A stretch of 64,000 bases of DNA from assembly GCF_004114935.1 (NCBI RefSeq), contig NZ_CP022221.1, positions 7,461,001 to 7,525,000 of the forward strand, written 5' to 3'. The notes beneath the pieces were generated by a model that worked only from the letters and a program-made list of their open reading frames with translations, had not been told where the DNA came from and ran no database searches. Of this stretch, positions 35,926 through 61,495 are shown piece after piece. The first letter of the stretch is position 1. Each line of letters begins with the position of its first letter. The stretch comes from Bradyrhizobium zhanjiangense (GTDB lineage: Bacteria; Pseudomonadota; Alphaproteobacteria; Rhizobiales; Xanthobacteraceae). Position numbers and translations under genes: made by a program.

Positions 35926-36384
35926 TCATCGGACCCCGTCGTTGTGCTTGATGTTTTCGTCGGAAGGACCGACCGGTATCCGCTGTTCCGGAGCATTGAT
36001 CTCATCGATCAGTTTGCGGCCGAGAAGCCGAAGGAGAAGCTTCCTTCCACGCACCAGTGCCGGATAAAGTGCCCTTGCGAGGCGTGGCCGGGAGAACACC
36101 AGCCGATTAAGGCGATTGAAGACAGTCGTCTCCCCGGCAAGCGTTGCCAGCAGATGCATTGCATCGGCCCCATGGTAGTGCCGCCCACGCCAGCGAACCA
36201 CCATGCCTTCATTGAGATCGAGGTTGCGGGCGCGGATATCGCCGACGATCGGATGCTCCGAACGCGCGTCGATCAGGTGAATGCGCTGCCCACGCTCCCG
36301 CAACTGGTACAGCAGAACATAGCGGCTGCATAACGGGCATTCGCCGTCATAGACCACCCAGATATCGTCATCACTATGGGTCAA
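35926..36384 (-). CDS. DCC-family (DUF393) thiol-disulfide oxidoreductase
   Basis: 152 residues from a TTG at 36384; the frame stays open to 36462. The DCC motif YDGECPLCSRYV carries the redox CxxC near the N-terminus, followed by a thioredoxin-like fold (IHLIDARSEHP, GADAMHLLATLAG). The gene overlaps the end of the upstream HTTM-like gene by about 11 bases, so they are translationally coupled. DCC proteins are often found beside or fused to HTTM (vitamin K carboxylase-like) membrane proteins, which fits this pairing. Start codon is uncertain. Confidence 0.8.
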   Translation of the reverse strand: MTHSDDDIWVVYDGECPLCSRYVLLYQLRERGQRIHLIDARSEHPIVGDIRARNLDLNEGMVVRWRGRHYHGADAMHLLATLAGETTVFNRLNRLVFSRPRLARALYPALVRGRKLLLRLLGRKLIDEINAPEQRIPVGPSDENIKHNDGVR

Positions 36385-38014
36385 TTCGATAGTCCGTTCG
36401 ATTCCGAACGTCGCGCACAAGCTTGCCCTCCGCCAGGCCGAGGCATACTGAGTCCACCACATAGTGATAGGCGACGATATCGTCCATGGTCAGCTTGTTG
36501 AATTCGCCATACAGCCATGGATTGGACAGCATGTGGTGCGGATAGGCATAAAAGCTGTTGTTGTCCTTCACCCAGGGGTAGACACGAAAAAAGCGATCCG
36601 TCTCGCGGACCAATTTTTCCACGGCCTCCATGGATACGCCTGTGTCCTGACGCGGAAGGATCTCCGGGCCGCAGGTGGTCGCGTCGTGCCAAGTCGCAAG
36701 ATCGTGGTTGTTGCCGCCAACGCGAGCCCGGAAATGATTCTCAGGGATGTACATGGTTCCGGTTCCGATCATGTACGAGTAGATGCCGAAATACGTGGAA
36801 GGCGCGAGAACTTGGCGACCATCGCGGGTCTCGACGAAAAGCCGCGGGCTTGCCAGCTTCGGCCCGTCCAGCCATCCCAGGTGATTGGTGTAGAAGAAGA
36901 ACCGGCCACAGATGACGGTCACGACCATCACAACCTTCATCGCCGGGGTGAACCCATCACGCGGCAGCGTGCGTGCCGCGGCTACGATGAACAGGTTGAG
37001 CGCAATCCAGAAGAAGAAAAGAGCCCCGAGCGTGAAGTACACGCCGATGTGGAAGACGTCGAACAGCAGGCAGAAGAACGACAGCGCGCGCGTCGAGATC
37101 GCAGCCAGGGGCGACAGGAGCTGGGCACCCAGCACGAAGACGTTGAAGATCAGCTGGTTGCTCACGATCGCGTCCCAGATCGTCTGCAACGCGCCCGACC
37201 ACAGGCCGAGCGGGGCGTCGCCGCGCTCGAGGCCCATCAGGATCGAGGTCTGCGTGGGATTTGCGAACAGCCAGGTCCATGGCTTCTCGCCACCAGCCTG
37301 CAGCTTTGCGATTCCCGACCAGAAATAGCTGCCGAGATGCGCCCCGACGGCGCACGCCCAAATCAAGCCATAGGCGCGATCGCGAAGCTGCTTCACGTCA
37401 TATGCGGGAGCGAACAGAGTTCGCAGCCACGGCACGCGATCCATCACCCAGGCGCTGGTGAGAACGATCGTGCCGAGCACGCCAAGCACGGCGAAGTTAC
37501 CGACGTCGAGCATGCCGAGATAATCGGTCTCCGTCACGAAGATGCCGGACACGACGCTCACCATTTCGCGCCATGCATGATAGAAGTAGAACAGCGGCAC
37601 CAGAAATGAAGGACGCCAGATCGCGGCTATTCCTGCCACAACCGCAAGCACCGCACCGTAGCGGAAGAACAGAATCTTGTCGCCCGACCCGAACAGGATG
37701 TTGGGGGGCCCTGCGAAGGGCCCCAATGAATCGAACAGCAACTGCACGAAGATCGTCATTCCGATCGCGAAGGCGGTGATCCGCAATGGCGGCGAGAAAT
37801 CACGGTAGCGAATGGAGCTGAAGGCGAGCGCGCCGGCAAATGCCGAGCAAACCAGCACCAGAGCGTAAATGTCAGACCAGCGCGCGAGATGTGTGACGGC
37901 CCGCCGCGAAATCGCAGACAGAATGACGGCTACTGCAAGGAGGAAGAGAGGTCCCGCAAGCGACGCGACACCAGACCGCGCTCCTTGCCGTGATGCAACA
38001 GTGTACAACGTCAT
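36374..38014 (-). CDS. HTTM-like polytopic membrane protein
   Basis: 546 residues from ATG 38014 (GGAGG 11 bases upstream; a TTG at 38056 is also in frame). Residues about 20-395 contain around ten hydrophobic helices, followed by a soluble C-terminal domain of about 150 residues with WHDATTCGPEILPRQD and NNSFYAYPHHML. The many-helix core with WxxG-rich loops and adjacency to a DCC protein fit the HTTM/vitamin-K-dependent carboxylase-like group, but no catalytic residue could be confirmed. It lies inside a polysaccharide cluster, opposite in strand to the glycosyltransferase and flippase on its sides. Role unknown. Confidence 0.65.
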   Translation of the reverse strand: MTLYTVASRQGARSGVASLAGPLFLLAVAVILSAISRRAVTHLARWSDIYALVLVCSAFAGALAFSSIRYRDFSPPLRITAFAIGMTIFVQLLFDSLGPFAGPPNILFGSGDKILFFRYGAVLAVVAGIAAIWRPSFLVPLFYFYHAWREMVSVVSGIFVTETDYLGMLDVGNFAVLGVLGTIVLTSAWVMDRVPWLRTLFAPAYDVKQLRDRAYGLIWACAVGAHLGSYFWSGIAKLQAGGEKPWTWLFANPTQTSILMGLERGDAPLGLWSGALQTIWDAIVSNQLIFNVFVLGAQLLSPLAAISTRALSFFCLLFDVFHIGVYFTLGALFFFWIALNLFIVAAARTLPRDGFTPAMKVVMVVTVICGRFFFYTNHLGWLDGPKLASPRLFVETRDGRQVLAPSTYFGIYSYMIGTGTMYIPENHFRARVGGNNHDLATWHDATTCGPEILPRQDTGVSMEAVEKLVRETDRFFRVYPWVKDNNSFYAYPHHMLSNPWLYGEFNKLTMDDIVAYHYVVDSVCLGLAEGKLVRDVRNRTDYRIDP

Positions 38015-38056
38015 CCCGTCTCGGACCTCCGGAGCTTCGCCATCGAGATCAACCAA

Positions 38057-38424: not shown

Positions 38425-39903
38425 GTGAGCTCGTTGGACAAGGACAGCAAGTCACGGGCCGTAACCAACATCCTCATAACAGGCGGGTCCCAGGCCTGGA
38501 AACTGTCGGCCGGTTTTGTCCTGACGATATTCTCGACGCGAAATCTTGCCCCGTCCGACTTCGGCCTGCTGGCCATGTCTGCGACGGCCGCAACGTTCCT
38601 CGGGCTCATCAAGGATGTCGGCGTTGGACAGGCCATCATTCAACGCACGGAAATCGCCAAGGGCCAGATCGATGCGCTGTTCTGGCTGTCGGTGCTCGCT
38701 TCCGCGGCATCTGCTCTCGTTCTGGCGTTGAGCGCGCATCCGGTTGCGCTGTTTTACGGCGATACGAGGCTTCAGCAGCTCATGATCGCAATTGCCGGCC
38801 TAAGTTTCATAGCTGGCCTTCCGACCGTTCCGGCGGCTCTCCTTGCCAGAGAATCCCGATTTAAGGCCCTAGCAATCCTGGATGTCGCCGCGACAACCGC
38901 TTCCGTTGTCGCAGGGATCGTCGCTGTAATCATCTTGAGAAACTATTGGGCACTTTACCTGTCCACGCTCGTTCTTACGCTCTTTTCGACAATCGGGATC
39001 TGGGCCTATTCCGGCTATCGCCCCGGATATCCCAGTCTGGACAGCGAGACGCGGCACATGGCGCGATTTGGCCTGCACGTGTCAGGGTTCAACCTCGTCA
39101 ACTATCTTTCGAGAAATGCGGACAACATTCTCATCGGCAAATTTCGAGGCGGCGACGAACTTGGCCTGTACGATCGGGCCTATAAGCTGTTGCTGCTGCC
39201 GATCGTCCAATTACACAACCCGATCGGCCAGGTGATTGTCCCGCTGCTTTCGCGGCTTCGTTTCGATAAGGAGAGATATCTCAGTACCTACAACGATGCC
39301 CTTGCCATGGTTATGCTCATATGTCAGCCGGGCATCGTGTTTGCCATCCTGCTCTCGGAGCCGCTCTTCAGAGTTCTCCTTGGCGAGCATTGGGTGGGCG
39401 CAGCCCCGATTTTTTCCTGGCTCGGCGTTGCCGGCTTGATCCAGGTCGCGACCGCGACGGCAGCTTGGCTGCTCCTCAGTCAGGGCCGTAGCCAGGAGTA
39501 CTTCAGGCTTGGCGTTTGGACCGCCTTGATCAACGTGACCTCATTCCTCGTCGGTCTTCCCTGGGGCGCGCTTGGAATCGCCGCGGCGTATACGCTGGTG
39601 AACTGCACCGTCGTGCTGCCGCTTTGCGCGATATCTATCGGTCGTCATGGCCCGGTGACGACAACGAGCCTGGTCAAGACGACCGTCCCGCATTGGATCG
39701 GTTGTGGCGTTGCGGCGGGCGTCACAAGGATTTCGAACATCTCATTGCTGGATGGAAACTCTTTCGCTGGGCTGGTTACGCTGCTGGCGCTTGCCTATGC
39801 ATCATATCTCCTCGCCATGATCTCCTTCACGCGGAAACGGGAACTTGCGAAACGCGCGTTGCGCAACGTTGTTCGAAAGGCAAAGACCTTCAGCGAAGCA
39901 TGA
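38425..39903 (+). CDS. Polysaccharide flippase (Wzx/MATE-like, PST family)
   Basis: 492 residues and 12-14 hydrophobic helices. It opens with LITGGSQAWKLSAGFVLTIF and FSTRNLAPSDFGLLAMSATA, the classic start of lipopolysaccharide-type flippases, and GLYDRAYKLLLLPI is a common internal signature. It should carry lipid-linked oligosaccharide across the inner membrane. Start is GTG at 38425 preceded by GGGG. Its 3' end overlaps the RTX gene by 14 bases, tail to tail. Confidence 0.88.
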   Translation: MSSLDKDSKSRAVTNILITGGSQAWKLSAGFVLTIFSTRNLAPSDFGLLAMSATAATFLGLIKDVGVGQAIIQRTEIAKGQIDALFWLSVLASAASALVLALSAHPVALFYGDTRLQQLMIAIAGLSFIAGLPTVPAALLARESRFKALAILDVAATTASVVAGIVAVIILRNYWALYLSTLVLTLFSTIGIWAYSGYRPGYPSLDSETRHMARFGLHVSGFNLVNYLSRNADNILIGKFRGGDELGLYDRAYKLLLLPIVQLHNPIGQVIVPLLSRLRFDKERYLSTYNDALAMVMLICQPGIVFAILLSEPLFRVLLGEHWVGAAPIFSWLGVAGLIQVATATAAWLLLSQGRSQEYFRLGVWTALINVTSFLVGLPWGALGIAAAYTLVNCTVVLPLCAISIGRHGPVTTTSLVKTTVPHWIGCGVAAGVTRISNISLLDGNSFAGLVTLLALAYASYLLAMISFTRKRELAKRALRNVVRKAKTFSEA

Positions 39904-42900
39904 AGTCATGCAACTCCGCCAGATGGACATCAATCGGGGCTACCGCGTGAACGGCGTCGACCTGATGAAGGCTCGAGTCAACATCTGGATAAGTGGTGGC
40001 CGCGAGGAGCCCTACCTTGGCCGTTTCATGAAACGCCTCGTTAACTAAGTCATATGCGTTGGAGGTGACGGACTGCTCGAACACGAACCCCTCGCCTCCC
40101 AGGCGCGCGGTGCCGACGGCCGGTGCGGTAGCAGGAGGCTGCGACGGCGCAACCGCCGAAAAATCAAAGCTAGCCTTCGGAGGATCGATGACCAGCGTGC
40201 CCCCGGATCCGTCGCTCGAGAGATTGAAGGTCGAGTTGGTGTAGTCGCCAACAAGCGAGATATGTGCCGTGTGATTTTGAGCGTCGACCACGGTCAACAC
40301 GCCACCGGCTGTATCGCCGGAAAAGGACGCCGTCGTTCCCGCTCCGTACGCGATGTCCTTCAGGTCGATATGGTTGGAATTTGACGCGGTGCCGTCACCC
40401 GTCAGACCGATGAGCGTTCCCGTAAATTGCGACGCGTGGTCCAACACCAGATTGCCGGTCGACGCCTTGAAGGTGATCGACCCGGAAGCGGCGCCGGACA
40501 ATTCGAGCGTGGCGCCGGGGTCGACCGTCGCGGCCTGTGACATATTGCCCAGATTCAATACGACATTTCCGGAGATCTTGAGGATGGTCGATGACGTATT
40601 GATTACACCATCGCCATTGAGGTCCTGATAAAACGTCGTCTCGACCGCTTTAAGAGCAGGGTCGGTCGGGGACACCTTGTTCAGGAGGTTCGATAGATAG
40701 TTGCCATTGCTGTCCGTGGTCCACACACAGAGTTCGCCGGTGGCCGGAATCTTCCAGGCGACATCATAGCCGCTGGTCGTTTGCTCAACGCCCACCGGCG
40801 TCCAAGCGCCGAACTGTCCCGACACAACCGCTACGCCACCGTACTTCAAGGTCGGCCCCGCGCCGCTGGCCATCGCGTCGAGCAAGTAATTCGAGCCGAC
40901 CAGAACCAGGCTGGTTGAGCCGGACGCCTCGATTGTCGTGCCTGAAACCTGCTGGGGCGTTGGTGGAAGACCAATCACGCCATCACCGTTGAGATCCTGG
41001 TGAAAGAGGGTCTCGCTCGACTCAAGAGCCGGGTCGGTGCCGGACACCTTGTTCAGATAGTTGGATACGAAATTGCCGTTGCTGTCGGTGCTCCAGACCG
41101 CGAACTGGCCGGTCGAGGGGATCTTCCACGCGACGAGATAGCCGTTCGACGACGCTTCCGCAGCCACTGGCACCCATGCGCCAAGCTGCCCCGCGACAAC
41201 CGCCGTTCCGCCATTCTTCAGGATCACCGATGAGCCGGCCGTCGAAAGGTAGAAGTTGCTTCCCGACTTGATAAGCGATGTCGTGCCGGTCGCTTCGATC
41301 ACCGTACCCACGGCGGAACTGAAAGCATTGGAAAGCTGGCTCAAATTGCCGGCGATGTCGGTGGCGGTCGCGGTGAAGCTGTGTTGCCCTGCCGTGAGCG
41401 ATCCGGTGGTGACGCTCCAGGCCCCACTCGTCGCCGCGACGCCCGTGCCGAGCAAGGTCGCGCCTTCGTACAGCCGGACAGTGCTTCCGGCTTCTGCCGT
41501 GCCGGACACGATTATCGCGCTTGAAGCTCCAGGTGCGCCCGAGGTCAGGATGGGTGCAACCGGTGCACGCGTATCGACCGTGACGTTCAGCGCACCGGAG
41601 GAAGCGCTGACGTTGCCGGCGGTGTCCGCGGTCTTGCCGGTAAAGGTGTGATTACCGTCCGCCAACGTTGCGGTGGCAAAGGACCAGGCGCCGTTGGTAT
41701 CGGCGATCGCCGTTCCGATCATCGTCGCGCCGTCGAAGACCTGCACCGTGCTCCCGGCGTCCGCGGTTCCAGTCAAATTCACGTGGTTGACATTGGTGAC
41801 GCCATCGCCGGCGACGTTGCTGTCGGGCGAGAACGACGCGAGCTTGGGCACGTTCGGGGCGATCGTATCGATGGTGACATTCACCCCGGCTGAGAGCGCG
41901 GTGAGATTGCCGACACCGTCCATCGCTGCGGCGGCAAAGGTGTGGCCGCCTTCGGCCAGCATTGCAGTCGCCATGCTCCAGCTACCGTTGCCGTCGGCGA
42001 TCGCCGTGCCGATCTGAGTTGTCCCGTCGAAAACCTTGACGGTTACACTTGCCTGCGCGCGACCCGTGAGGACCAGATGATTTGTATTGATGAGGCCCGA
42101 CACGATCGAGCCGCTGTCGTTGACAGCCGAGATCGTCGGCACGGCGATAGATGTCATCGTCATCGGCGAATTCGTCGCGGAAACGAATGAATAGTCGGCC
42201 GACGTCAAGCTGGTGACGCCCGCAATGCGCAGCGTATCTGCTCCACCCGCGTAGTGAACGGTCCACACGTCGTTCACATGGGTCAAATAGGCGCCGCTAT
42301 CGTAACCTTTCAGAATCAGCTTGTCGTGTTCGGCAGTCGCGCTTGTGAAGACGTGGAAATCGGCGACCGTATCGTTGCCGCTGCCTACATTGTAAATGAA
42401 GGTATCGTTTCCGGCTCCTCCGGAGAGCCAGTCATTCCCGCCCGCACCATCCAGGAAATCGTCACCGCTCGAGCCGACCATACGGTTTGCCATTTGGTTG
42501 CCGACGCCGGCGAGCCCGCCCATCATCAACGTCAAGTTTTCGACGTTTGCCGACAACGTGTACGACGTCCACGCCTCCACGCTGTCAACGCCGCCGCCGG
42601 GATTCTCGACGATTTTCTGGTTCGCATTACCGATGACGTAGGTATCGTCGCCGTTCCACCCGACGAGCGTGTCATCGATATTGACCGCCGAGAGCTTGTC
42701 GTTCGCCGCGGTACCGTACACCATGCGGCTGCTCGCTTTCCCGCTGATCCAGGACGTAATTGTCCCGCCGACCGGGAGCGTTGCTGGCAATTGGAAATCG
42801 TCGCTGGTGAATACTGAGACCGTCGTGTTGCGGAACACCAGGGTATCCTGGCTCGTCAGCTTCAGATATACGTCGCTTCCGACCTGGCTCATCGCCGCTT

Positions 42901-45127
42901 GAACGTCGGCGAATGAGGTGAAGGCAAAGCCGTTCAATTGGACAACATCGTGTCCAGCGCCTGATCCCGGCGAAAAGTCGGTGATGATGTCCGAACCGTC
43001 GCCGGAGTTGATTACGAAGCTATCCGCACCGCCCCCGCCGGTCAGGATATCATTGCCGAGCCCGCCGGTGATCACGTTTGCCGCGGCATTGCCGATGATG
43101 ATGTTGGACTGAATATTGCCGGTCGCGTTGATGGCCGCCGAACCGGTGAGCGTCAGATTCTCGACGTAGCTCGAAATTGTATACGTCACCGAGGAGTTTA
43201 CCGTGTCGATGCCTCCGCCATAGGCTTCGATAACCTTCGCACCGGAATCGGTGACGACATAAGTGTCATCGCCGGCACCGCCGGTCATGACATCGGCCCC
43301 TCCTGCACCACCGATCAGATCATTGCCGGATGTGCCGCTCAGCGTGTCCGCAGCCGCGCTTCCCACGATCGTGTTGGTCGTTGCGCCACTCGTGAGCAGG
43401 GTGTAGTTCGCAAGCGTGTACTCCGGCAATTGATAGGCTTTGATTGAATCGATCGTCATCGTCGCCGTCGATCCCGGAGCGGCGTTGCCCGGCCAGCTCC
43501 CGCCCATCGCCAGATTGGCGATCATATACATCGCCGAATTCATGTCGGAGGGTGTGGCCTGCTGTGCGACCGCCTTCCCGTCGACGAAGAATGTCAGGTC
43601 GTAAGGGGTCCATTTGAGCGCAAACGTGTGTTCTCCGGTGGTCAGGTTGGCTGTATTTGCCCAACCCCCATTCGTCGCAGGCGCGTAGGGCGAGTGAATG
43701 GCCCAATGCGCCTGGTCAGGATCCTGACCAAAGGCCTCGAGCACATCGATTTCCGTCTTGAGGTTATTGGCAGTGCTGGGCAGCAACCAGAACGCCGGCC
43801 ACGCGCCGCTCGTGCTGGGCAGTGTGGCCGTCATCTCGAAATAGCCGTAGGTCTGGGTAAAGCTGTTCTGGGTCGAGATCATGCCCGACGAAAATATGGC
43901 ACTGCCCGTATAAGGCGTTGCGCTCGCGGGCAAGGGCTGCGCCGTGATGACGAGGTGACCGTCCTGAATCGAGAACGGATTAAGCCCAAGCGACGTTGAC
44001 GCCTGAGTTGCCGGCAGCCCGGAAAAGCTGGGATCGACATACACTTCCTGTTCGCCGGCCAGCCCGTAGCCTGCCGCTCCGCTCCAGGCATAGCTCGTGC
44101 GCCAGGTCAGGCTCGGATCCTGACCCGCGGACAGCGTGTTGAAGTCGTCGTTGAAGGTCTGCACGAGCCCGGTCAGGGGGCTGACGATGTTTATATTGGC
44201 GGCCGTGAGATTCTGGAGACTGGTGTTTTCAAGTGTTATCGTTTCGCCGCTGGCGATCGTCAGGACAAGGTCGGTGCCCACCTGCTTCATGGCCGCCGTG
44301 ACATCGGTGAACGTCTTGAAGCCGGTGTTGTTGAGCTGCAGGATGTCCCCGCCGGCGCCCGCCTGAAAGTCGGTGACGATGTCGTTGCCGTTGCCCGCTG
44401 TCACGACAAAAGTGTCGCGACCGGCCCCACCGGTCAGCACATCGTTGCCTCGCCCGCCGTCAATCATGTTGTCGCCGGCATTGCCGACAATGATGTTGTT
44501 GAGATCATTGCCGGTGGCGGGCGACGGAACACTATCTGTCAGGACAAGATTCTCGACGTTCGGCGCATTGACGAGGCTGTATCCATTGATGTTCCAGACA
44601 CGGATCGTATCGATACCCTCTCCGGCCTGCTCGACAACCTTGGTGTTGTGGTCATAGACATAGTAGGTGTCGTCCCCTGCTCCGCCGATCAGCGTGACGC
44701 CCGTGCCGCCGGCCTCCATGCCGTCATTTGTCGCCCCGGTCGTCAGCGTGCCGCCTGCGGGGACGGTACCCGCCCAGTTCCATGCCGTTCCGCTCGCTGG
44801 CAGCGGATTGTCCAGCACGACATTGCTTGCAACCAAGGTCGAAAGCGCGACATTCTGCAGCGTCAGGGTTTCGGTGGACGACAGCGTGACGACCGTATCG
44901 GAGCCCATTTGGGTGGCCGCTGCCAGGAAACTGGCGAACGTCGCAAAACCGTAGTTCTGCAACCGCAACACATCGCCGCCTAAACCCGCCTGAAAATCAA
45001 CGACCGTATCGGAGCCGTACCCCTTCGAGATGACGAAGGTATCGCTGCCTGCGCCTCCGGTCAGAACATCGTTTCCGGTCCCGCCAAACAGAACGTCAGC
45101 ACCGGAACTTCCATTGATAATGGACAT
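39890..45127 (-). CDS. Giant RTX protein with GH16 glycanase domain, Ig-like and Trp-rich repeats
   Basis: 1745 residues. Order: RTX calcium-binding block (about 1-310, GGTGNDVLTGGAGSDTF type), GH16 domain (about 325-567) with catalytic motif E459-I-D461-V-L-E464 and GAWPAFWLLP, second RTX block (about 580-990), three bacterial Ig-like repeats (about 1000-1300), two Trp-rich repeats of about 105 residues (WVPVAAEASSNGYLVAWKIP and WTPVGVEQTTSGYDVAWKIP, with FHQDLNGDGVIG endings), and a C-terminal tail. RTX repeats and lack of a signal peptide indicate type I secretion. It probably cuts a beta-glucan, perhaps the polymer made here, as ExsH or PlyA do in other rhizobia. AAGGAGC precedes the ATG. 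Confidence 0.9.
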   Translation of the reverse strand: MSIINGSSGADVLFGGTGNDVLTGGAGSDTFVISKGYGSDTVVDFQAGLGGDVLRLQNYGFATFASFLAAATQMGSDTVVTLSSTETLTLQNVALSTLVASNVVLDNPLPASGTAWNWAGTVPAGGTLTTGATNDGMEAGGTGVTLIGGAGDDTYYVYDHNTKVVEQAGEGIDTIRVWNINGYSLVNAPNVENLVLTDSVPSPATGNDLNNIIVGNAGDNMIDGGRGNDVLTGGAGRDTFVVTAGNGNDIVTDFQAGAGGDILQLNNTGFKTFTDVTAAMKQVGTDLVLTIASGETITLENTSLQNLTAANINIVSPLTGLVQTFNDDFNTLSAGQDPSLTWRTSYAWSGAAGYGLAGEQEVYVDPSFSGLPATQASTSLGLNPFSIQDGHLVITAQPLPASATPYTGSAIFSSGMISTQNSFTQTYGYFEMTATLPSTSGAWPAFWLLPSTANNLKTEIDVLEAFGQDPDQAHWAIHSPYAPATNGGWANTANLTTGEHTFALKWTPYDLTFFVDGKAVAQQATPSDMNSAMYMIANLAMGGSWPGNAAPGSTATMTIDSIKAYQLPEYTLANYTLLTSGATTNTIVGSAAADTLSGTSGNDLIGGAGGADVMTGGAGDDTYVVTDSGAKVIEAYGGGIDTVNSSVTYTISSYVENLTLTGSAAINATGNIQSNIIIGNAAANVITGGLGNDILTGGGGADSFVINSGDGSDIITDFSPGSGAGHDVVQLNGFAFTSFADVQAAMSQVGSDVYLKLTSQDTLVFRNTTVSVFTSDDFQLPATLPVGGTITSWISGKASSRMVYGTAANDKLSAVNIDDTLVGWNGDDTYVIGNANQKIVENPGGGVDSVEAWTSYTLSANVENLTLMMGGLAGVGNQMANRMVGSSGDDFLDGAGGNDWLSGGAGNDTFIYNVGSGNDTVADFHVFTSATAEHDKLILKGYDSGAYLTHVNDVWTVHYAGGADTLRIAGVTSLTSADYSFVSATNSPMTMTSIAVPTISAVNDSGSIVSGLINTNHLVLTGRAQASVTVKVFDGTTQIGTAIADGNGSWSMATAMLAEGGHTFAAAAMDGVGNLTALSAGVNVTIDTIAPNVPKLASFSPDSNVAGDGVTNVNHVNLTGTADAGSTVQVFDGATMIGTAIADTNGAWSFATATLADGNHTFTGKTADTAGNVSASSGALNVTVDTRAPVAPILTSGAPGASSAIIVSGTAEAGSTVRLYEGATLLGTGVAATSGAWSVTTGSLTAGQHSFTATATDIAGNLSQLSNAFSSAVGTVIEATGTTSLIKSGSNFYLSTAGSSVILKNGGTAVVAGQLGAWVPVAAEASSNGYLVAWKIPSTGQFAVWSTDSNGNFVSNYLNKVSGTDPALESSETLFHQDLNGDGVIGLPPTPQQVSGTTIEASGSTSLVLVGSNYLLDAMASGAGPTLKYGGVAVVSGQFGAWTPVGVEQTTSGYDVAWKIPATGELCVWTTDSNGNYLSNLLNKVSPTDPALKAVETTFYQDLNGDGVINTSSTILKISGNVVLNLGNMSQAATVDPGATLELSGAASGSITFKASTGNLVLDHASQFTGTLIGLTGDGTASNSNHIDLKDIAYGAGTTASFSGDTAGGVLTVVDAQNHTAHISLVGDYTNSTFNLSSDGSGGTLVIDPPKASFDFSAVAPSQPPATAPAVGTARLGGEGFVFEQSVTSNAYDLVNEAFHETAKVGLLAATTYPDVDSSLHQVDAVHAVAPIDVHLAELHDFMLR

Positions 45128-45345: not shown

Positions 45346-47193
45346 TTAGGGAACCGTGTTCCGCATCCGATATGTGTGCACATCATCTTGCGAAGTTCCC
45401 GTTACGCACGCTCCTCGACTCGCCAGGACTTTCGCCGGAGGGCCCTCAGCGCGAACTCGGCCGTTTTCAATGCACACCACATGGTCCGCATCGCGCACTG
45501 AATCCAGGCGATGTGTTATCAGCAACAAGGTTCGGTTCTTGAATTGTAGCTGGATCGCGCGTCGAATGCTGTCCTCGAGCGTCAGATCGAGCGCGCTCAT
45601 CGCTTCGTCGAGGATGAGGAACTTCGGATTGCGCACAATCGCACGTGCAAGACCAAGACGCTGACGCTGACCGCCCGAGAAGCGCAGACCATGCTGTCCT
45701 ATCCAGGTGTCGTATTTGTGAGGTAAGGCCTCGACGACCTCTGAAATGCCCGCGACCCGCAGCGCCTGCCGAACCTCTTCCTCGGAGGCGTCGTTCCTAG
45801 CCATCCGCACGTTTTCGATCACCGTGCCTTCGACCAGGTCGACATCCTGGCCCGCAATCGCGAGCATGCCGAGCCAATCGGTTCGATGAACGTCTTCGAT
45901 GGACCGCCCATCAACCCGTATGTCACCCTCGTTGGCCGAATAGAGCCGCAACAATAGATTTACGATCGTGGTCTTGCCCGCTCCACTGGCTCCAATGAGC
46001 GCAGTGGTCTTCCCCGCAGGAATGTCAAACGAAGCATCCAAAAGAGCGGGCTCCGTACCGGCATCATAGCGGAACGTCACGTTGCGAAATGAGATGCCGT
46101 TCTCCAGTTTAGCCACGGCCACGCGCCCGGCGTTCGGATACTCCTTGTCATCCGTCGACAGCATCTGTCTGATGGACCGAAGCTGTGGCTCGATCTGCGC
46201 CATATACAGCAAGTTCCCTTCCAGATCTCGCATATGCGGCTGCAATCGATAGAGCAACGCGACCGCGGTCAGGCTCGTCGCGAAGCCGATTCCCCATAAA
46301 TCAGCGAATGCGATTACGAGAAACAGCACGACAAGATACCCCACCTCCGTCAGAGGCGAGACCAGGGCGGATAGGCGCGCAAGGCGCAGCGCGACCTGTC
46401 GGGCCTGCGTCGAAGCCTGCTCGAAGCGTTTCTGGTGAATCTCCTCCTGGCCATACGCGCGGATCGTGCGCATACCCTGGAGTGTCATCAGCATATGCTC
46501 ACCCAGCTTTTGATGAACCAACTTTACGCCGGCACCCAACTGCTGCATGGGCAACGAAAGATGGCGCAATCCGGCCGATACAACCATCGAGGCGACGAGA
46601 GCGAGGACGGTTACCTTGATCGAGAGCGCCAACAGAAATGACGCGAAGAGAAAAACCGAGCACGAACTCACGATAATGCGGGTAAGAGTGGCGTATGCCC
46701 CGGAGATCACCCATGTCTCGGTTCCCAACACCTCCATGAGATATGCTTCGTCATGGCGTTGGAAGAACGAATACGAAGTTGACAGATACTGCAGATGAAC
46801 GCGGTTGCGCGCGACTTCATTGATCTTCTCTCCGACACGCGCACTGATTAATGTGTTGATAAAGGAAAGAGCACCGCGAGCAATGATGAGAAGGAGCAGC
46901 ACGACAGCAGTTTCGGTCGAGCTGTGAAACCAGTTAGCCGCATATCGGAGCGCTTCGCCCAGGAGGCCACTGGTCGACGTTGCAAGTTCCACCTGACCCA
47001 TGGCGAAATAGAAGAACAGGAGTACGAGAGTAATCCCGACCGTCTCCGCCAACGATGTAGCAAGGCCAAGGACAATCAGCGCGGGCGTCACCCAACCGGG
47101 CAGCGGAGCAAGCTTGAGCAGCTTGAACAGTTCGACCAATGCAGCGCGGCGAGCAGCTCTCGGTCTTCGTATGTTGTTCGGGTGCTCTGTCAT
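45346..47193 (-). CDS. ABC exporter, fused permease-ATPase (MsbA/PglK-like)
   Basis: 615 residues from ATG 47193. The first about 330 residues have six helices in the ABC type I exporter arrangement, then the nucleotide-binding domain with Walker A GASGAGKTTIV, signature FSGGQRQR (in place of LSGGQ) and Walker B FLILDEAMSALD. No peptidase-like N-terminal domain is present, so it looks more like a lipid-linked oligosaccharide flippase than a type I secretion ABC protein. The start overlaps the previous stop as ATGA. It directly precedes the RTX gene on the same strand, 218 bases apart; secretion of the RTX protein by it cannot be ruled out. Confidence 0.85.
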   Translation of the reverse strand: MTEHPNNIRRPRAARRAALVELFKLLKLAPLPGWVTPALIVLGLATSLAETVGITLVLLFFYFAMGQVELATSTSGLLGEALRYAANWFHSSTETAVVLLLLIIARGALSFINTLISARVGEKINEVARNRVHLQYLSTSYSFFQRHDEAYLMEVLGTETWVISGAYATLTRIIVSSCSVFLFASFLLALSIKVTVLALVASMVVSAGLRHLSLPMQQLGAGVKLVHQKLGEHMLMTLQGMRTIRAYGQEEIHQKRFEQASTQARQVALRLARLSALVSPLTEVGYLVVLFLVIAFADLWGIGFATSLTAVALLYRLQPHMRDLEGNLLYMAQIEPQLRSIRQMLSTDDKEYPNAGRVAVAKLENGISFRNVTFRYDAGTEPALLDASFDIPAGKTTALIGASGAGKTTIVNLLLRLYSANEGDIRVDGRSIEDVHRTDWLGMLAIAGQDVDLVEGTVIENVRMARNDASEEEVRQALRVAGISEVVEALPHKYDTWIGQHGLRFSGGQRQRLGLARAIVRNPKFLILDEAMSALDLTLEDSIRRAIQLQFKNRTLLLITHRLDSVRDADHVVCIENGRVRAEGPPAKVLASRGACVTGTSQDDVHTYRMRNTVP

Positions 47194-48185
47194 AGCGATT
47201 GACTTGGATCGCCGATGGCAAACAACGAAGCTGGAGGTCGAACCACCCTGCGACGCTGATGACGCCATTTCCACCGGATTTCCGAGACGGTATCCCGCGG
47301 AACATCGTGCACGGCGACCCTGAGCGCGAGCAAGGGATGCCGTCTGAAAAGGTGTCCAAAGATTGAAACGAAGTACCACAACTGACCGCCCGTCAGAGCT
47401 CTGCGAAGCAGCCAACGCGCATAGTTTCTGAAGCCCATGTCGAGGAGCGCCCTGCGCTCAGGGTGCCGCGTCATGATCTCATCCGCGACCAGCATCCACG
47501 ACCGGAACATCCGCGTCTTGTTGCTTGACATGTTGTTCGGGAGGTAACGATAGCCGATCTGGTACTCGGGCACGACCGCGAAGTGGTACGCCTCCGCGAC
47601 ACGGCAATAGAACAGCAGATCCTCGCAGCCTTCTGCCCCCGATGCCCTGAGTCCGCTCTCGAAACCTTTTGCAGCTATGAGGGCTTCGCGGCGGACCAGC
47701 GCCGAGCTGCCGTTGCCAATGAAATTTCCCTGACAGAGATAGTCCAGCACCTCGCCCGCATGAAAGACGGGATCGGACCTGGCAGTTACGCGACTATCGG
47801 CATCGATCCAGTCATACCAGCTGTAGACAAGACCAGTCCGCTCCCCTGCATCAAGCAAGGCTTGAAGCTGTTGCTCAATCTTGCGGGGCGTCCAGAGATC
47901 ATCGGCATCAATGAACGCGACGAAGTCCGCGCGCGCCGCCTGCCAGCCCGCATTCCGGGCGGCCGCCACCCCTGCATTACGCTGTTCTATGATCGCTACT
48001 CGAGAATCCTGACTCAGATGCCGCTGGACAACTGCGACCGTGTCGTCTGTGGAGCCGTCGTCCACGACAATGATTTCCAGCTCCCGGTGCGACTGGGATC
48101 TGACGCTGCGAAGCGTCTCATCTATCGTTGCAGTGGCGTTGAAGGCGGGAATAACCACACTGACCAGAAGCGCACCGGTACTCAT
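47190..48185 (-). CDS. Family 2 glycosyltransferase
   Basis: 331 residues. VSVVIPAFNATATIDETLRS, LEIIVVDDGSTDDTVAVVQ and ADFVAFIDADDLW give the GT-A nucleotide-binding core with its DAD metal site. The C-terminal part has GCEDLLFYCRVAEAYHFAVV, the acceptor-side ED motif, and no membrane helix. It transfers one sugar of the repeating unit from a nucleotide donor. It overlaps both neighbours by ATGA (trifunctional gene upstream, ABC exporter downstream). Confidence 0.9.
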   Translation of the reverse strand: MSTGALLVSVVIPAFNATATIDETLRSVRSQSHRELEIIVVDDGSTDDTVAVVQRHLSQDSRVAIIEQRNAGVAAARNAGWQAARADFVAFIDADDLWTPRKIEQQLQALLDAGERTGLVYSWYDWIDADSRVTARSDPVFHAGEVLDYLCQGNFIGNGSSALVRREALIAAKGFESGLRASGAEGCEDLLFYCRVAEAYHFAVVPEYQIGYRYLPNNMSSNKTRMFRSWMLVADEIMTRHPERRALLDMGFRNYARWLLRRALTGGQLWYFVSIFGHLFRRHPLLALRVAVHDVPRDTVSEIRWKWRHQRRRVVRPPASLFAIGDPSQSL

Positions 48186-51115
48186 TGATACTGCTCCAAG
48201 CAGCGCGCGAATGTGTCCAGCGTAAAATCGCCCCTGACCTCAATTCGCGGCAGGTCTAACAAATTGTCTCTGAGGGTGGCGGCCCGGCTGACCGTGTTGA
48301 ACAGGGTCTTGTAGCCGCATTCGGCTGCGAGGATTCCAAGCCGCTGATCCGTGGAGCCAAACGGCGCGGCAAGCGACGTTATAGGTCGCCCAAGCCATCG
48401 CTCCAATTGCGCACGAGATCGCGTCAGTTCCTCGGCGAGATTCCAGGTCGCAAGTTCCTCGCTGCGCGGGTGGCTCGCCAAATGGCTACCAAAGGATACG
48501 CCTTCGGCGGCAAGCCCGGCAATCCTGACCGCATCGAGCAGCGGAGCGGGTTCTCCGAACGGAGCATCCCACTCCGCCCGCTTTCCCACGAAGTCGGTCG
48601 CAACGAACACCTCTGCCGAGAAATCGTTTGCCTGCAGGATCGGCCATGCATGCTCGGCAAAATCCTCGTACCCATCGTCGAAGGTGATCAGCACCGGCCT
48701 GCCAACGAACGGATGATTGCTTGCCACGAACCAGGCGAGCTGATCCGAATTGATCGCGTGGTAGCCATTTCGGCGCAGCCACAGCATCTGTTGCCCGAAC
48801 GCATCCGGAGACAAGCGGTACCGCGCCAGTTCGCCGGGTCCTTCGGCCGCAATTCGGTGGTACATCAGGACCGGAACGTGCGTGCGTCTTTCGGATTGCG
48901 CGACGTCAAACCTGCGCGCCGCGGCCCCACCCCACACGATTGACCGCGCAACCTCGACCTCGATCGGCGCGTCGATAGCCGCGCATTTCACCTGTGTGTC
49001 AGGGGGCGCTTCGCCCGGAAGTAACCGCCTGAACCGATCGATACGGTACAGCTCCGTCTCGATCGATGTCTCCAGGGCGAGCCCGGGTACGCCCTGGATA
49101 GTCCGCGTGATCGTCTCCGCCCCATACGGACTCTCCCAGTCGAGCCCCGTACGCGACATGTTGTCCTTCAGCACAAAGGCATGGGCCGCCACGAGGTGAC
49201 CGCCAGGACGCAGCGCCTGCACCAGTCGCTTCGCGACCGACTCTAGTTCGGCTTCATTATTAAGGTAGTAAAGGACCTCGGAGCAGACGATCAGATCGAT
49301 GTCCTGTGGGAGCGGATCGGCGGACAAATCCAGTTCAGAGAATTCGATATTCTGATGCCCATTGCATCGGACACGAGCGCGATCGAGCGCCCTGGTCGAA
49401 ATATCGGCGGCCCTGAGGCGCTTGACCCTGGGTGCCAATTGCCGCGTGAAATGTCCTTCCGCGCACGCGAGCTCGAGCGCGTGATCCACTGGCTGGTCTG
49501 GCAGAAGCTCGAGCTGCCGAGTGTACTTTTCCTGTTCATACGGCGAACCATAGTTCCAGGGATCCTCCTGCTCGAAGAAACCCTCCCAAAATTGCTTGCG
49601 TGCGGTGTCTCGAGGCTTTTCGGCACATCGCTTACGTCTGCCGGAATCGGGGATACCTGAAATGGCCAGCGGCCGCGCCTCACGCGAGGCCCGCGTGGCC
49701 AACTCGCGCAGGCGCCCCCGATGAGTATCTCGGCCGTCTCGCATCAAAGATCGAACCCGTTCGGTACGCTTGTGGAGTGCGATTTTCGCCCGAACCAGCC
49801 TTCCGATCTGGTCTTTGACCTGCAAATGAACGAGGCCATGGGCGGCCAGCGCAATCCAGAAGCGGCTGTCGACAGTGCCGAGGGCACCAATATCGAGCAG
49901 CGTCAGGATGCGAGGCCCGTCACAGAGATAGACGTACAATCGATCAACAGTCCCGATCGGCCTAATGGTGCCGATACGGCGAAGGTCAACGCGCGTGCCG
50001 AACGTCAACGTGAGGACCCTGGGCGCCGAAAGGTCGTCATAGTCGAGCACTTTCCGCTCAAAGCGGTATTGGCACTTTCGCCCTGCCGCCGGGTCGTTCC
50101 ATGCGCGACCGATCGCTGAAATGAGGTTGGTTACGCCCTCCCCGTATTGCGGCCACCGTTCCGCCAGCTTGGCGGGCACCGTTCTTGCCCCGACCGTCAC
50201 GGCATCGAGCAGAACAGCGGCAATGAAGTCCGCCGTTGTCTCGGTCTTTGGAATGTCGCTGAGCGTTTCCAGCGATGGATCGCTGGCGTTCCCCCGGCCG
50301 CATTCAAATCCGGCACACCAGAGCGCGAAATACGCATACGCCGCCGCGGCGCTGCCATATGCAGCAGTTGACGCTCCCGCCCGATGTGCGGGTGCCGGCT
50401 CGCTGATGCGGTCATCGCTGGAAAATCCGCGCGCAATGACCACCCGCGCATCGGCCAGCATCCGTTTGACGTCTTGTGTCAGTGAACGGTCGCTTGTTCG
50501 ATAATAGCTCAATTTCTCATCGACATGGATCCACCTGCCGCCGCAGCGAGCGATCCGTTGCCATAGGTCCCAATCTTCGCACGTGCGGAGACTGGTCTCA
50601 AAGCCACCGACCTTTGCGACCGCGCCCTTTAGGACGAGCACGCCATGGATGAACGTGGCACACGTGCGGGCGAACCGTTCAAATGCGTTGTCCTGGATGG
50701 CCGGATCGCGGCGAACGGGAGTTTCACTGCCGTCAGGCATAACCCGGCAACAGTTGCAATAGGCGGCCACCGCCGCGGGATCGCGATCCAGCGCAGCATT
50801 CATCCGCGCAAGGAAGGATCGATCAATCCAATCGTCACTGTCCAGGAACAGTATTCGTTCGCCGCGCGCGCTTGCAATTCCCTTGTTGCGGGCACCTGAA
50901 GCGCCTGCTCCGCCAGACTGCAGAATCCGAAAGCGGGAATCCCGCGCCACATATTCAGCAACGATCGCGGCCGTGGCATCGATCGAACCGTCATCCACGA
51001 CAAGCGCCTCCCAGTCGGCGGCGCTCTGCGCGAGCACGCTGTCAAGCGTTTCAGCAATGGTCCCTGCAGCATCGCGGGCGGCGATCACGACGGACGTACG
51101 CGGATGGGCTGTCAT
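48182..51115 (-). CDS. Trifunctional glycosyltransferase / SAM methyltransferase / polysaccharide deacetylase
   Basis: 977 residues from ATG 51115. Residues about 6-230: GT2 domain (TSVVIAARDAAGTIAETLDS, EALVVDDGSIDATAA, LFLDSDDW). About 230-500: helical, Ala/Arg-rich linker. About 507-700: NodS-like methyltransferase (ALELACAEGHFTRQLAPRV, LIVCSEVLYYL). About 747-977: NodB-type deacetylase (VPVLMYHRIAAEG, ITFDDGYEDF with the DD at 813-814, GSHLASHP with H-x3-H). The DNA frame is continuous with ATGA overlaps at both ends, so it is one polypeptide. The same architecture exists in other proteobacteria (recalled as a known trifunctional family). Should build and modify an amino-sugar-containing unit. 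Confidence 0.92.
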   Translation of the reverse strand: MTAHPRTSVVIAARDAAGTIAETLDSVLAQSAADWEALVVDDGSIDATAAIVAEYVARDSRFRILQSGGAGASGARNKGIASARGERILFLDSDDWIDRSFLARMNAALDRDPAAVAAYCNCCRVMPDGSETPVRRDPAIQDNAFERFARTCATFIHGVLVLKGAVAKVGGFETSLRTCEDWDLWQRIARCGGRWIHVDEKLSYYRTSDRSLTQDVKRMLADARVVIARGFSSDDRISEPAPAHRAGASTAAYGSAAAAYAYFALWCAGFECGRGNASDPSLETLSDIPKTETTADFIAAVLLDAVTVGARTVPAKLAERWPQYGEGVTNLISAIGRAWNDPAAGRKCQYRFERKVLDYDDLSAPRVLTLTFGTRVDLRRIGTIRPIGTVDRLYVYLCDGPRILTLLDIGALGTVDSRFWIALAAHGLVHLQVKDQIGRLVRAKIALHKRTERVRSLMRDGRDTHRGRLRELATRASREARPLAISGIPDSGRRKRCAEKPRDTARKQFWEGFFEQEDPWNYGSPYEQEKYTRQLELLPDQPVDHALELACAEGHFTRQLAPRVKRLRAADISTRALDRARVRCNGHQNIEFSELDLSADPLPQDIDLIVCSEVLYYLNNEAELESVAKRLVQALRPGGHLVAAHAFVLKDNMSRTGLDWESPYGAETITRTIQGVPGLALETSIETELYRIDRFRRLLPGEAPPDTQVKCAAIDAPIEVEVARSIVWGGAAARRFDVAQSERRTHVPVLMYHRIAAEGPGELARYRLSPDAFGQQMLWLRRNGYHAINSDQLAWFVASNHPFVGRPVLITFDDGYEDFAEHAWPILQANDFSAEVFVATDFVGKRAEWDAPFGEPAPLLDAVRIAGLAAEGVSFGSHLASHPRSEELATWNLAEELTRSRAQLERWLGRPITSLAAPFGSTDQRLGILAAECGYKTLFNTVSRAATLRDNLLDLPRIEVRGDFTLDTFARCLEQYQ

Positions 51116-52272
51116 CTGCGAAACCTTCGACGATGATAGAACAGCAATCCGGCGAGATACCCCGTCATCTCCTCTTTGAGGAAGCGGTCGCCAATGCTCC
51201 TTCCTTCCATTGCTTTCCGGAGCAACCGATAGAGATACCAACGCGGCTTGTGATAGTAGGCCAGACGCCGGTTCGCTGAGATTCCGGTTCTTTCATACTG
51301 CACCAAAAGTGCGGCTGCATGACCGCGCATGTAGTGATAGATCTGGCTGGCCAGTCCATCCATTGTCCTGCGGTGAAAGTGGAATGCGACTGACGCCGGA
51401 TTGTAACGACACGTGTAGCCGCCCGCGAGCAATCGATACCAATACTCCGAGTCGCCCGAGCAGCCGGCCTGACCGACGTCCAGGCGCTCATCAAAGAGCC
51501 CGACGGCCTGAAACACCTCGCGCCGGAACGCCATGCTCGCTCCGGCGCCGATGTCCCACGCGGGAAGGACCTGGCCGCGATGAGATCGGAAGGCTGCGCT
51601 GTCGTAATCCTGTTCGCGATAGCCCTTGCCAAATCCCCAATACGTCTCGAAGTGCCGTTGCGCCTCAGTCGCGAGCTCGGCGGGAAGCACAAGCCCAGTC
51701 ACCGCACCGATTTCGGGAGAATCAAACGCACATGTCAGTTGCTCCAGCCAGCGCGGGTGAAGCAGCACATCGTCGTCCGTATAGGCGACAATTTCTCCGG
51801 TCGCCTGGAGCGCGCCGGCATTGCGTGCAATATCCAGACCGGGTCGCTCCTCGCGAATATAGGTTGCTGCCGCGGCCAACGCGACATCCCGCGTCCTCCG
51901 ATCCCGCGATGCATTGTCCACCACAATGATTTCTCGTGGAGGATGGGTCTGTTGCGGCAATGACGACAAGCATTTGCTCAGATCGTCCGGGCGGTCGCGC
52001 GTGCAGATCACCACGCTCGCCGAGAGCCTCACTTTCGTCGGGATTCGCACTTGGGAATCGACGGCTGACAGGAAGGTGTCGTCGATATGATCGATCCTGG
52101 CGTCGGTTATCTGGCCTTCATGCATCAGCACATGGCCGATCGGCTGGTCGGCGCGCCAGAACACCGTCATGCCCTCGTTCAATGTCGTTACCGCAACATC
52201 GGACGCCGACGTCACGGAGACATGCGCCACGCCTCTTCCCAGTCCAATTCCTGCGAATGGGGTGTCCATCAT
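51112..52272 (-). CDS. Family 2 glycosyltransferase with N-terminal extension
   Basis: 386 residues. An N-terminal beta-type segment of about 85 residues precedes the GT-A core: SASVVICTRDRPDDLSKCLS, REIIVVDNASRDRRTRD and GEIVAYTDDDVLLHPRWLEQ, with a DDD metal site. RREVFQAVGLFDERLDVGQ is a standard GT2 acceptor-side motif. The end is rich in Arg (YHRRRFRR). First of four ATGA-chained genes; galE lies 12 bases upstream on the same strand and would be part of the same operon. Confidence 0.9.
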   Translation of the reverse strand: MMDTPFAGIGLGRGVAHVSVTSASDVAVTTLNEGMTVFWRADQPIGHVLMHEGQITDARIDHIDDTFLSAVDSQVRIPTKVRLSASVVICTRDRPDDLSKCLSSLPQQTHPPREIIVVDNASRDRRTRDVALAAAATYIREERPGLDIARNAGALQATGEIVAYTDDDVLLHPRWLEQLTCAFDSPEIGAVTGLVLPAELATEAQRHFETYWGFGKGYREQDYDSAAFRSHRGQVLPAWDIGAGASMAFRREVFQAVGLFDERLDVGQAGCSGDSEYWYRLLAGGYTCRYNPASVAFHFHRRTMDGLASQIYHYMRGHAAALLVQYERTGISANRRLAYYHKPRWYLYRLLRKAMEGRSIGDRFLKEEMTGYLAGLLFYHRRRFRR

Positions 52273-52284
52273 CGTCGTGCGAAA

Positions 52285-53268
52285 TCATGCCGGCGGGTTG
52301 CTATCGCTCCACCTGAGTGCAGTCTCAATAATGAAATCGATCCCGGATTGCCGCGGGCTCCAACCGAGCTCCCGCTTGGCTTTGGCAAAGGAGGCGACGA
52401 GCATGGGCGGGTCGCCCGCGCGGCGCGGGCCGCGGCGGACGACCGGATCGTCTCCGGAGACACGCTTCACGGCCTTTATTAGTTCGAGCACACTCGTGCC
52501 AACCCCTGTACCGAGATTGAAGACATGAGTACCGCCTCGAGCCACCAGCATGTCACCTGCGAGAAGGTGCGCCTGCGCCAGGTCATTGACGTGGATATAG
52601 TCCCTGATTGCACTGCCATCCGGCGTCGGAAAGTCCGTTCCCAGAATGGTGAAAGGCCGATCGGGTCGGCGCGCTGCTTCGATCGCCAGCGGAATGGCAT
52701 GCGTTTCCGGTTCGTGGCGCTCGCCGAGTTCGCCGTCAGGGTCACAGCCCGCCGCGTTGAAATAGCGCAGCGAAACCGACGACATCTCGTACGCGCGACC
52801 AAAGTCCTCCAGCATACGCTCGATGATCATCTTGGACCAACCATAGGGATTAATCGGCGCCTGCGGATGTGTTTCGTCTATCGGGGTGTGCTTGGGTACT
52901 CCGTAACTGGCACACGTACTGGAAAAGAGCACGCGCGAGCAGCCGGCCGCTCGCATTGCCTCCAGGAGGGCAAGCGTTCCTCTCGTGTTATTGTCGTAAT
53001 AGACGGCGGGATCAGCCACGGATTCGCCGACATAAGCCAGCGCCGCGAAGTGCGCGACGAGGTCTGGCTTATAGGTGTCCAGCACTGCGCGCACGCCGGC
53101 TGAATTGCGAATATCGCACTCGACCAACGGTCCCCAGCGCACCGCATCGCGCCAGCCCCGGGAAAGATTGTCGAGCGTCACGACGTTCCAACCCGCCGTC
53201 GCAAACGCCTTGCAGCAATGCGAGCCGACGTAGCCGGCACCGCCGGTGACCAGAACGGTCTTCTTCAT
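52285..53268 (-). CDS. galE: UDP-glucose 4-epimerase
   Basis: 327 residues, typical length. NAD-binding VLVTGGAGYVGSHCCKAF at the N-terminus, the Ser/Thr-Tyr-Lys centre with SSTCASYG and NPYGWSK, and SLRYFNAAGCDPDGELGERH and IRDYIHVNDLAQAHLLA, all GalE signatures. It interconverts UDP-glucose and UDP-galactose and so supplies galactose for the polymer. It precedes the glycosyltransferase operon by 12 bases on the same strand and probably shares its promoter. Confidence 0.93.
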   Translation of the reverse strand: MKKTVLVTGGAGYVGSHCCKAFATAGWNVVTLDNLSRGWRDAVRWGPLVECDIRNSAGVRAVLDTYKPDLVAHFAALAYVGESVADPAVYYDNNTRGTLALLEAMRAAGCSRVLFSSTCASYGVPKHTPIDETHPQAPINPYGWSKMIIERMLEDFGRAYEMSSVSLRYFNAAGCDPDGELGERHEPETHAIPLAIEAARRPDRPFTILGTDFPTPDGSAIRDYIHVNDLAQAHLLAGDMLVARGGTHVFNLGTGVGTSVLELIKAVKRVSGDDPVVRRGPRRAGDPPMLVASFAKAKRELGWSPRQSGIDFIIETALRWSDSNPPA

Positions 53269-53559
53269 CTCGCCGCGTCCGCGCGCTGCGCATCGGTCGG
53301 AGGTGGGGGACTACCGAAATTTGTCGGACCGGCAAAATCGTTACGCGGCTTAATCAACCTTCGCGCCAACAACACTCAACTCCTTGTCACGAAGAACGAC
53401 CTTGTTCTTGATCTCCAATATTCCAAATTCCATCAAATCATATCTAGATGGATTGTGGCGTCATTCGTACGATCAAACGGCGGCGCGCAGACGCGTGGAG
53501 CTGCCACGCGCAGTTGCAAAGGCCCGAAACGGTGCAATACATGGATTGATGTTGCGAAG

Positions 53560-61420: not shown

Positions 61421-61495
61421 CGTCCTGAGCTCTTCGGCGCCACCGGTCGCATCACAGCATCGAACCGCTTCTGATGCATCACCCAAACTTCGCAT

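Follow-up and report, generated by a model that had tools for sequence, protein, structure and literature searches.

In the 64,000-nucleotide stretch of the Bradyrhizobium zhanjiangense genome analysed here (the window), a single gene encodes a 977-residue protein that combines a GT2 glycosyltransferase (GT), a NodS-type SAM methyltransferase (MT) and a CE4 polysaccharide deacetylase, all with intact catalytic residues. Judging from its domains, its gene neighbourhood and the coupling of MT and CE4 across relatives, we consider it reasonably likely that this protein works in the cytoplasm as a three-step enzyme making surface polysaccharide, in which the GT would add an N-acetylhexosamine, the CE4 domain would deacetylate it and the MT would N-methylate it. 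The product is probably a surface polysaccharide with an N-methylated amino sugar rather than a Nod factor.

Architecture and conservation of the trifunctional gene

The gene and its parts are arranged as follows:

48182..51115, minus strand: trifunctional gene, 977 aa, ATG start, 4-bp overlap with each flanking gene
50411..51115, minus strand: domain 1 (residues 1-235), soluble GT2 glycosyltransferase, D41 D42 / D92-x-D94 / E180
49598..50410, minus strand: middle region (residues 236-506), folded with high predicted confidence at about 256-425
48911..49594, minus strand: domain 2 (residues 508-735), NodS-type SAM methyltransferase, conserved DPWxY...YExxKY, ExxCxEG and SEVLYY-type motifs
48185..48904, minus strand: domain 3 (residues 738-977), CE4 polysaccharide deacetylase, D813 D814 / H878-x3-H882

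A previous sequence-only reading had proposed one polypeptide uniting a GT2 enzyme, a NodS-like methyltransferase and a deacetylase, and this is what we observe. The frame runs from the ATG at 51115 to the stop at 48182-48184 with no break between domains (a plus-strand ORF was considered and rejected), and three Pfam families match above their cut-offs: Glycos_transf_2 at residues 8-120 (99.5 bits, cut-off 23.3), NodS (PF05401) at 510-670 (85.9 bits, cut-off 24) and Polysacc_deac_1 (PF01522) at 806-937 (68.5 bits, cut-off 23.1). Structure prediction for the full chain gave a mean pLDDT of 87.5 and a pTM of 0.73. The gene is carried by 19 of 265 congeneric genomes, and its nearest relatives are from Bradyrhizobium, with a protein 98% identical. 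Since all 20 copies in those 19 genomes are stop-free open frames (983-1138 aa), and dN/dS between the two copies of this genome is 0.16, the fusion is not a chance product.

To score conservation, we compared 81 fused ORFs drawn from 80 loci of named genomes; the residues checked across the three domains are kept in 77-81 of the 81 ORFs, except D181 (71) and R925 (53). In the GT, D92 and E180 are invariant and D41, D42 and D94 are each found in 78; in the MT, E548, E553, G554, D571 and E613 are invariant and D518 is kept in 77; and in the deacetylase, whose motifs read TFDDG (811-815) and SHLASH (877-882), D813 is invariant, while D814, H878 and H882 are each kept in 80, with one deviating relative apiece. 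The middle region evolves fast, varies in length from about 190 to 500 aa in relatives and found no convincing match in a PDB comparison.

This domain order is spread over about ten phyla, cyanobacteria and Planctomycetes among them, and is shared by all 80 named loci retained for the comparison. The gene of the window fits a family that NCBI already names, as the sequence-only reading had noted: the 'trifunctional glycosyltransferase/class I SAM-dependent methyltransferase/polysaccharide deacetylase', identical in domain order, similar in length, its name borne by relatives at 51-90% identity. This entry is a database name, and our literature search found no experimental paper on the family, which is widespread yet apparently unstudied; PMC13390465 proved unrelated. 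A search of plasmids returned six records, all below 60% identity.

Relationship of the domains to the nodulation enzymes

Of the NodC-, NodS- and NodB-like activities initially proposed, only the NodS likeness stands, and for an MT that lies near NodS in a clade of its own; the GT is a soluble enzyme unlike NodC, and the deacetylase resembles PgaB and PplD rather than NodB. NodC is a processive membrane GT2 enzyme with a QxxRW motif. We rejected this identity for the GT domain, which scores 29.2 bits against the NodC profile TIGR04242 (cut-off 550; the genome's own NodC scores 751), and in which no QxxRW motif was found. In a hydropathy scan, no segment of the fusion exceeded the threshold used, whereas NodC has one; because of this, and because SAM and nucleotide sugars require the cytosol, the predicted location of the fusion protein is probably cytosolic.

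The MT domain passes the gathering score of the NodS superfamily and shares its fold and SAM motif, and NodS is its nearest MT of solved structure. Against the NodS equivalog NF041650 it reaches 105.1 bits (cut-off 300; the genome's own NodS scores 343.7). NodS, the nodulation N-methyltransferase, is free-standing, and the 31 fused MTs in our tree form their own group against it (support 100/99), so that a literal origin by fusion of NodS itself was rejected.

For the deacetylase, the NodB profile TIGR04243 (cut-off 240; the genome's own NodB scores 337) is not among the eight families matched at E-values up to 10. PgaB, IcaB and PplD are among its best fold and profile matches and share its metal and catalytic motifs, with scores under the cut-offs for PgaB (TIGR03938, 84.5 bits, cut-off 321.9) and for the holdfast deacetylase HfsH (NF050820, 15.9 bits, cut-off 400).

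Coupling of methyltransferase and deacetylase

MT and CE4 directly adjoin each other in every one of the 81 fused ORFs, their matches overlapping or separated by no more than 6 residues, in contrast to the greatly varying middle region, and there are MT-CE4 proteins without a GT as well as others with the GT at the opposite end. When the MT alone was used as query, CE4 sequence followed it in all of the best 120 of 522 matches, two of which are cut off or shifted inside CE4. Likewise, no MT without any CE4 was found among 238 sequences (237 among the matches listed, from queries that included CE4, and the window's own), two being cut inside CE4. Four of these 238 have GT and CE4 and lack the MT, and in a quick tree their losses are independent (four changes, all four forced by starred branches). 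As the MT was lost repeatedly while CE4 was kept, it looks like an optional step after CE4. In one MT-less relative, P0043, N replaces the first catalytic Asp of CE4.

The partnership extends beyond the fused family. In a tree of 72 MTs, a single branch separates all 40 that have a CE4 partner (31 fused, 6 NodS-type and 3 with a CE4 gene next to them) from the 32 without one, with support of 98/93, and of 99/95, 98/94 and 98/87 when rows are left out; none of 500 shuffles was as low in the three reduced sets. The position of the NodS and L179-type branches depends on model-based support, since they are long, with about 2 changes at each site.

The free-standing MTs were taken from the best seven candidates per genome. 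Two of 43 matches (G131 and G083) were excluded from the partner count, and for 32 of the 41 examined the retrieved stretch contains no CE4, eight stretches being shorter than 20 kb (8.6-18.8 kb) owing to contig ends or the chosen range. One of the 41, L184, sits in a 718-aa frame and is not strictly free-standing. The scan combined a mixed profile with eight queries for CE4 and gave 9 of 41 positive, including L156, counted through a NodB fragment alone (E-value 4e-5); an earlier scan with the fusion family's own deacetylase profile had given 5 of 41 and missed NodB-type CE4.

Because most of the free-standing NodS-superfamily members examined are thus unpartnered, the MT family alone is no proof of an N-acceptor. 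Their number, and the fact that O-methyl sugars are common in rhizobial polysaccharides, speak for an O-methyltransferase whose action on the glycan does not depend on the deacetylase, in a fusion that simply gathers tailoring enzymes. We regard this as rather unlikely, though the most serious competitor, given that the listed matches contain no MT without CE4, that the MT was lost with CE4 kept, and that the MT groups with NodS, a known N-methyltransferase.

Gene module and proposed pathway

The fusion gene lies in a conserved neighbourhood:

52285..53268, minus strand: UDP-sugar 4-epimerase GalE, 327 aa, over the TIGR01179 cut-off (391 vs 262 bits)
51112..52272, minus strand: GT2 glycosyltransferase, 386 aa, upstream of the fusion
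47190..48185, minus strand: GT2 glycosyltransferase, 331 aa, downstream of the fusion; best NCBIfam match TuaG, below its cut-off
45346..47193, minus strand: HepA/MsbA-like ABC exporter, both profiles below cut-off; likely ATG at 47193, overlapping the GT2 gene by 4 bp (in the listed ORF, 689 aa, the start is called too early)
39890..45127, minus strand: GH16 glycanase, 1745 aa, carrying RTX, Ig-like and W_rich_C repeats; EglC-like at 678 bits (cut-off 700)

The order GalE-GT2-fusion-GT2-ABC-GH16 is retained in congeneric loci, and a second copy of the first five genes, as a single block, lies elsewhere in the chromosome. Of 17 congeneric loci examined, 16 have the GH16 gene after the module; this genome's second copy lacks it. 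In Mesorhizobium, the ABC and GT2 genes of the module do not accompany the fusion gene in 37 of 38 loci; elsewhere, the ABC gene is missing in 17 of 42 loci.

Our model builds on the observed domains and their conserved catalytic residues, on the gene module, on conservation and on the coupling of MT to CE4. The GT2 domain would extend a growing glycan, probably linked to a lipid, by an N-acetylhexosamine, the CE4 domain would strip the N-acetyl group from the newly added sugar, and the NodS-type domain would then methylate the freed amine, rather than a hydroxyl, with SAM as donor. The two flanking GT2 enzymes would extend the unit, the ABC transporter would export the glycan and, in Bradyrhizobium, the adjoining GH16 glycanase may later trim the polymer. 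The sequence-only interpretation, of a modified amino-sugar unit made and decorated in one place within a polysaccharide locus, is partly supported, its product being a prediction.

It is improbable that the unit contains no amino sugar, with the GT transferring a plain hexose and the deacetylase removing an O-acetyl group or acting on another residue. The GT donor is unreadable from sequence, and GalE could supply UDP-Gal as well as UDP-GalNAc (in the alignments inspected, its residue opposite E. coli Tyr299 is Leu, which does not settle the substrate); against this, the CE4 relatives with structures include the GlcNAc-polymer N-deacetylases PgaB and IcaB, along with PplD, and the nearest solved MT, NodS, methylates an amine. 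Finally, a fused NodC-NodB-NodS enzyme making a chito-oligosaccharide signal is very improbable, even though every domain has a superfamily counterpart in the nod pathway and nodC occurs in 15 of 19 carriers against 120 of 246 non-carriers of the genus (Fisher p 0.016, relatedness uncorrected), since the GT is not NodC, a canonical nodABCSUI set lies elsewhere in the same genome, nodC is missing, at the threshold applied, from 4 of the 19 carriers, the family reaches cyanobacteria, Planctomycetes and others, and no NodA-like acyltransferase turned up when the module genes were scanned with Pfam.

Wider implications and comparison with known systems

A three-step enzyme of polysaccharide synthesis would turn a database name into a testable pathway, with three chemistries in one protein, a module of five genes and naturally occurring relatives in which only the MT is missing. 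If it is true, an easily missed N-methylhexosamine is predicted in the polysaccharides of many bacteria, made by an enzyme system able to produce cationic N-methylated glycans, and Nod-factor N-methylation gains a candidate origin. More tentatively, CE4-coupled N-methylation may possibly be a general bacterial tailoring of polysaccharides, spread over about ten phyla through the fused enzyme, with the NodB-NodS step as an offshoot, because in our trees NodS shares its side only with CE4-partnered MTs; polymers of N-methylamino sugars should then be widespread but overlooked.

Among known systems, the chitooligosaccharide deacetylase NodB belongs to the same CE4 superfamily and is likewise paired with a NodS-type MT, at 22% identity between the genome's own NodB and the fused deacetylase. 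PgaB, IcaB and PplD act outside the cytoplasm, unlike the deacetylase described here, which is joined to cytosolic enzymes. By description alone, the fusion is alike in principle to the heparan sulfate N-deacetylase/N-sulfotransferase, where a deacetylase shares one chain with an enzyme acting on the freed amine, by sulfation instead of methylation.

A trifunctional gene within a conserved gene module

The sequence-only reading had placed a single three-domain polypeptide at 48182..51115, leaving only its strand unstated, and this proved right: on the minus strand, an uninterrupted frame runs from an ATG at 51115 to a stop at 48182-48184 and encodes 977 residues. The proposed Pfam check located GT2 at residues 8-120, NodS at 510-670 and Polysacc_deac_1 at 806-937, each far over its cut-off, and the full-length predicted model (pLDDT 87.5, pTM 0.73) has runs of three or more residues with a pLDDT below 50 only at 486-501 and 732-734. 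The genes for GalE, a GT2 glycosyltransferase, the fusion, a further GT2 and an ABC exporter follow each other tightly head to tail; the fusion gene shares 4 bp with each of its neighbours, and the likely start of the ABC gene overlaps the GT2 gene before it by 4 bp. Further features of the surrounding locus are:

39890-45127: EglC-like GH16 protein of 1745 aa with RTX, Ig-like and W_rich_C repeats, scoring 678 bits, just below the EglC cut-off of 700
36374-38056: 560-aa ORF with a TTG start and about nine hydrophobic segments, near a Wzx-like gene (38425-39903)
60377-61495: polysaccharide pyruvyl transferase

The 560-aa ORF has no Pfam match and is possibly a polymerase or ligase; given the pyruvyl transferase, the product of the wider locus may be a pyruvylated polymer.

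The order GalE-GT2-fusion-GT2-ABC-GH16 is kept across 17 congeneric loci besides the window (L185-L200 and L112, with the carrier G667 left out), where, at the thresholds used, the ABC exporter and the downstream GT2 are found in 17/17 and GalE, the upstream GT2 and GH16 in 16/17 each. A second copy of the module, without the GH16 gene of the block, lies in the same chromosome at 4115710-4123567 (L108-L109) and matches 45420-53282 of the window over 7.9 kb at 94.4% identity. In the 80 kb compared, no other match above 150 bp was found except one of 214 bp, and a phage-type integrase is encoded about 15 kb from the second copy. Between the two copies, dN/dS comes to 0.16 in the fusion gene and to 0.22-0.26 in both GT2 genes and the ABC gene, but GalE reaches 0.54.

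Breadth of the family

The fusion is a new member of a family for which an NCBI name already exists; our literature searches found no published work on a trifunctional glycosyltransferase (GT)/methyltransferase (MT)/deacetylase (DAC) family. In a scan of one genome per species over 84,980 species, all of the best 80 loci of at least 526 confirmed relatives carry GT, middle region, MT and DAC in a single frame (81 ORFs). Going by their record titles, they come from Bradyrhizobium, Mesorhizobium (38 loci), Rhizobium, sphingomonads, other Proteobacteria, Cyanobacteria, Verrucomicrobia (Haloferula), Planctomycetes, Acidobacteria, Bacteroidetes, Ignavibacteria, Omnitrophota, Myxococcota and Eremiobacterota, that is, from nine or ten phyla according to the placing of Ignavibacteria, although the distant relatives are often metagenome bins and individual assignments may be wrong, as perhaps that of a locus titled Synechococcus (L046), which has 51% identity and Bradyrhizobium-type neighbours. 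Within the genus, 19/265 genomes carry the fusion, in 20 copies free of internal stops, and only that of the window has two (counted by the MT).

Within fetched stretches of up to 10 kb per side, an ABC exporter of the module type accompanies 25 of the 42 non-Mesorhizobium loci among these 80, as opposed to 1 of the 38 from Mesorhizobium; 37 of the latter have none of the three partners tested (ABC and two GT2s). In L033, the only Mesorhizobium locus with its neighbours scanned, these include NAD-synthesis and cyclase genes.

Variants were also observed: a Novosphingobium bin has two nearby trifunctional genes (L075, 9959-13072 and 16210-19110), the second with a weak DAC score of 88 bits, and larger fusions are found in L100 (8696-13504), a 1603-aa frame with an additional N-terminal GT-like stretch, and in P0329, where 1515 aa hold GT4-type Pfam domains on top of GT2-MT-DAC.

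Coupling of the methyltransferase to CE4 deacetylases

When the query was limited to the MT segment of a relative from Nostoc, a CE4 sequence stood right behind the MT in all of the best 120 of 522 matching proteins, two of which (P0311 and P0327) are cut or shifted within CE4. Likewise, none of 238 sequences scanned from two earlier searches (best 120 of 1432 and best 120 of 464 matches) had an MT without any CE4, P0047 and P0233 being cut within it. Among these 238, 111 are MT-CE4 proteins without a GT match, some on short contigs and possibly cut, three (P0204, P0209 and P0213) are permuted to MT-DAC-GT in a single chain, and four combine GT and CE4 without the MT. By a quick method, the last four, which come from JGI or ENA sources, occupy four separate tree positions (four changes, four forced); one has a nearly identical MT-containing sister, and in one, P0043, the first catalytic Asp of CE4 is changed.

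Across 398 same-phylum genomes, with at most seven candidates scored per genome, the matches to an MT profile comprised 11 fused proteins scoring 289-335 bits, then nothing down to 136 bits, where free-standing MTs begin. Of 43 such MTs 41 were examined, and for nine of them the DNA fetched around the gene also encodes a CE4: six lie in nod-type clusters, and in three (L179, L182 and L183, from other families) the NodS-like MT gene adjoins one for a PgaB-like CE4 protein of about 400-460 aa, pairs that form an unfused counterpart of the fusion. In the MT tree, these nine and 31 fused MTs are separated from the other 32 by one branch (support 98/93). The split persists with four long rows removed (99/95), and with either the NodS group (98/87) or the L179 group (98/94) also removed; the long NodS and L179 branches are the main weakness of this argument.

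Because of the coupling in the searches, the four-place loss of the MT and the split in its tree, we favour N-methylation of the deacetylated amine as the mechanism. The simplest reading is a cytosolic enzyme that would add a HexNAc, remove its acetyl group and then methylate the amine; judging from linkage, the polymer would be exported by the ABC transporter and trimmed by the GH16 enzyme.

Comparison with the Nod enzymes

New here are the breadth of the family, the strict coupling of the MT to CE4, the placing of the MT beside NodS yet apart from it, the repeated MT loss, the unnamed middle region (residues 236-506) and the five-gene module duplicated as a block. At about 2.82 Mb, the same chromosome carries a single cluster (L114, 7114-13127) of the canonical nod genes A, B, C, S, U and I, all over their cut-offs, followed by an ORF in nodJ position; in the nod clusters of other loci, piecemeal matches to NodU (L153, L154) or NodB (L156) were seen. 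A Nod-factor role is unlikely for the fusion, despite nodC being commoner in its carriers (15/19) than in non-carriers of the genus (120/246; p 0.016, kinship ignored). Compared with the Nod proteins of its own genome, the fusion shares 33% identity with NodS (E 4e-27), 22% with NodB (E 4e-5) and 37% with NodC across 79 residues only (E 3e-6).
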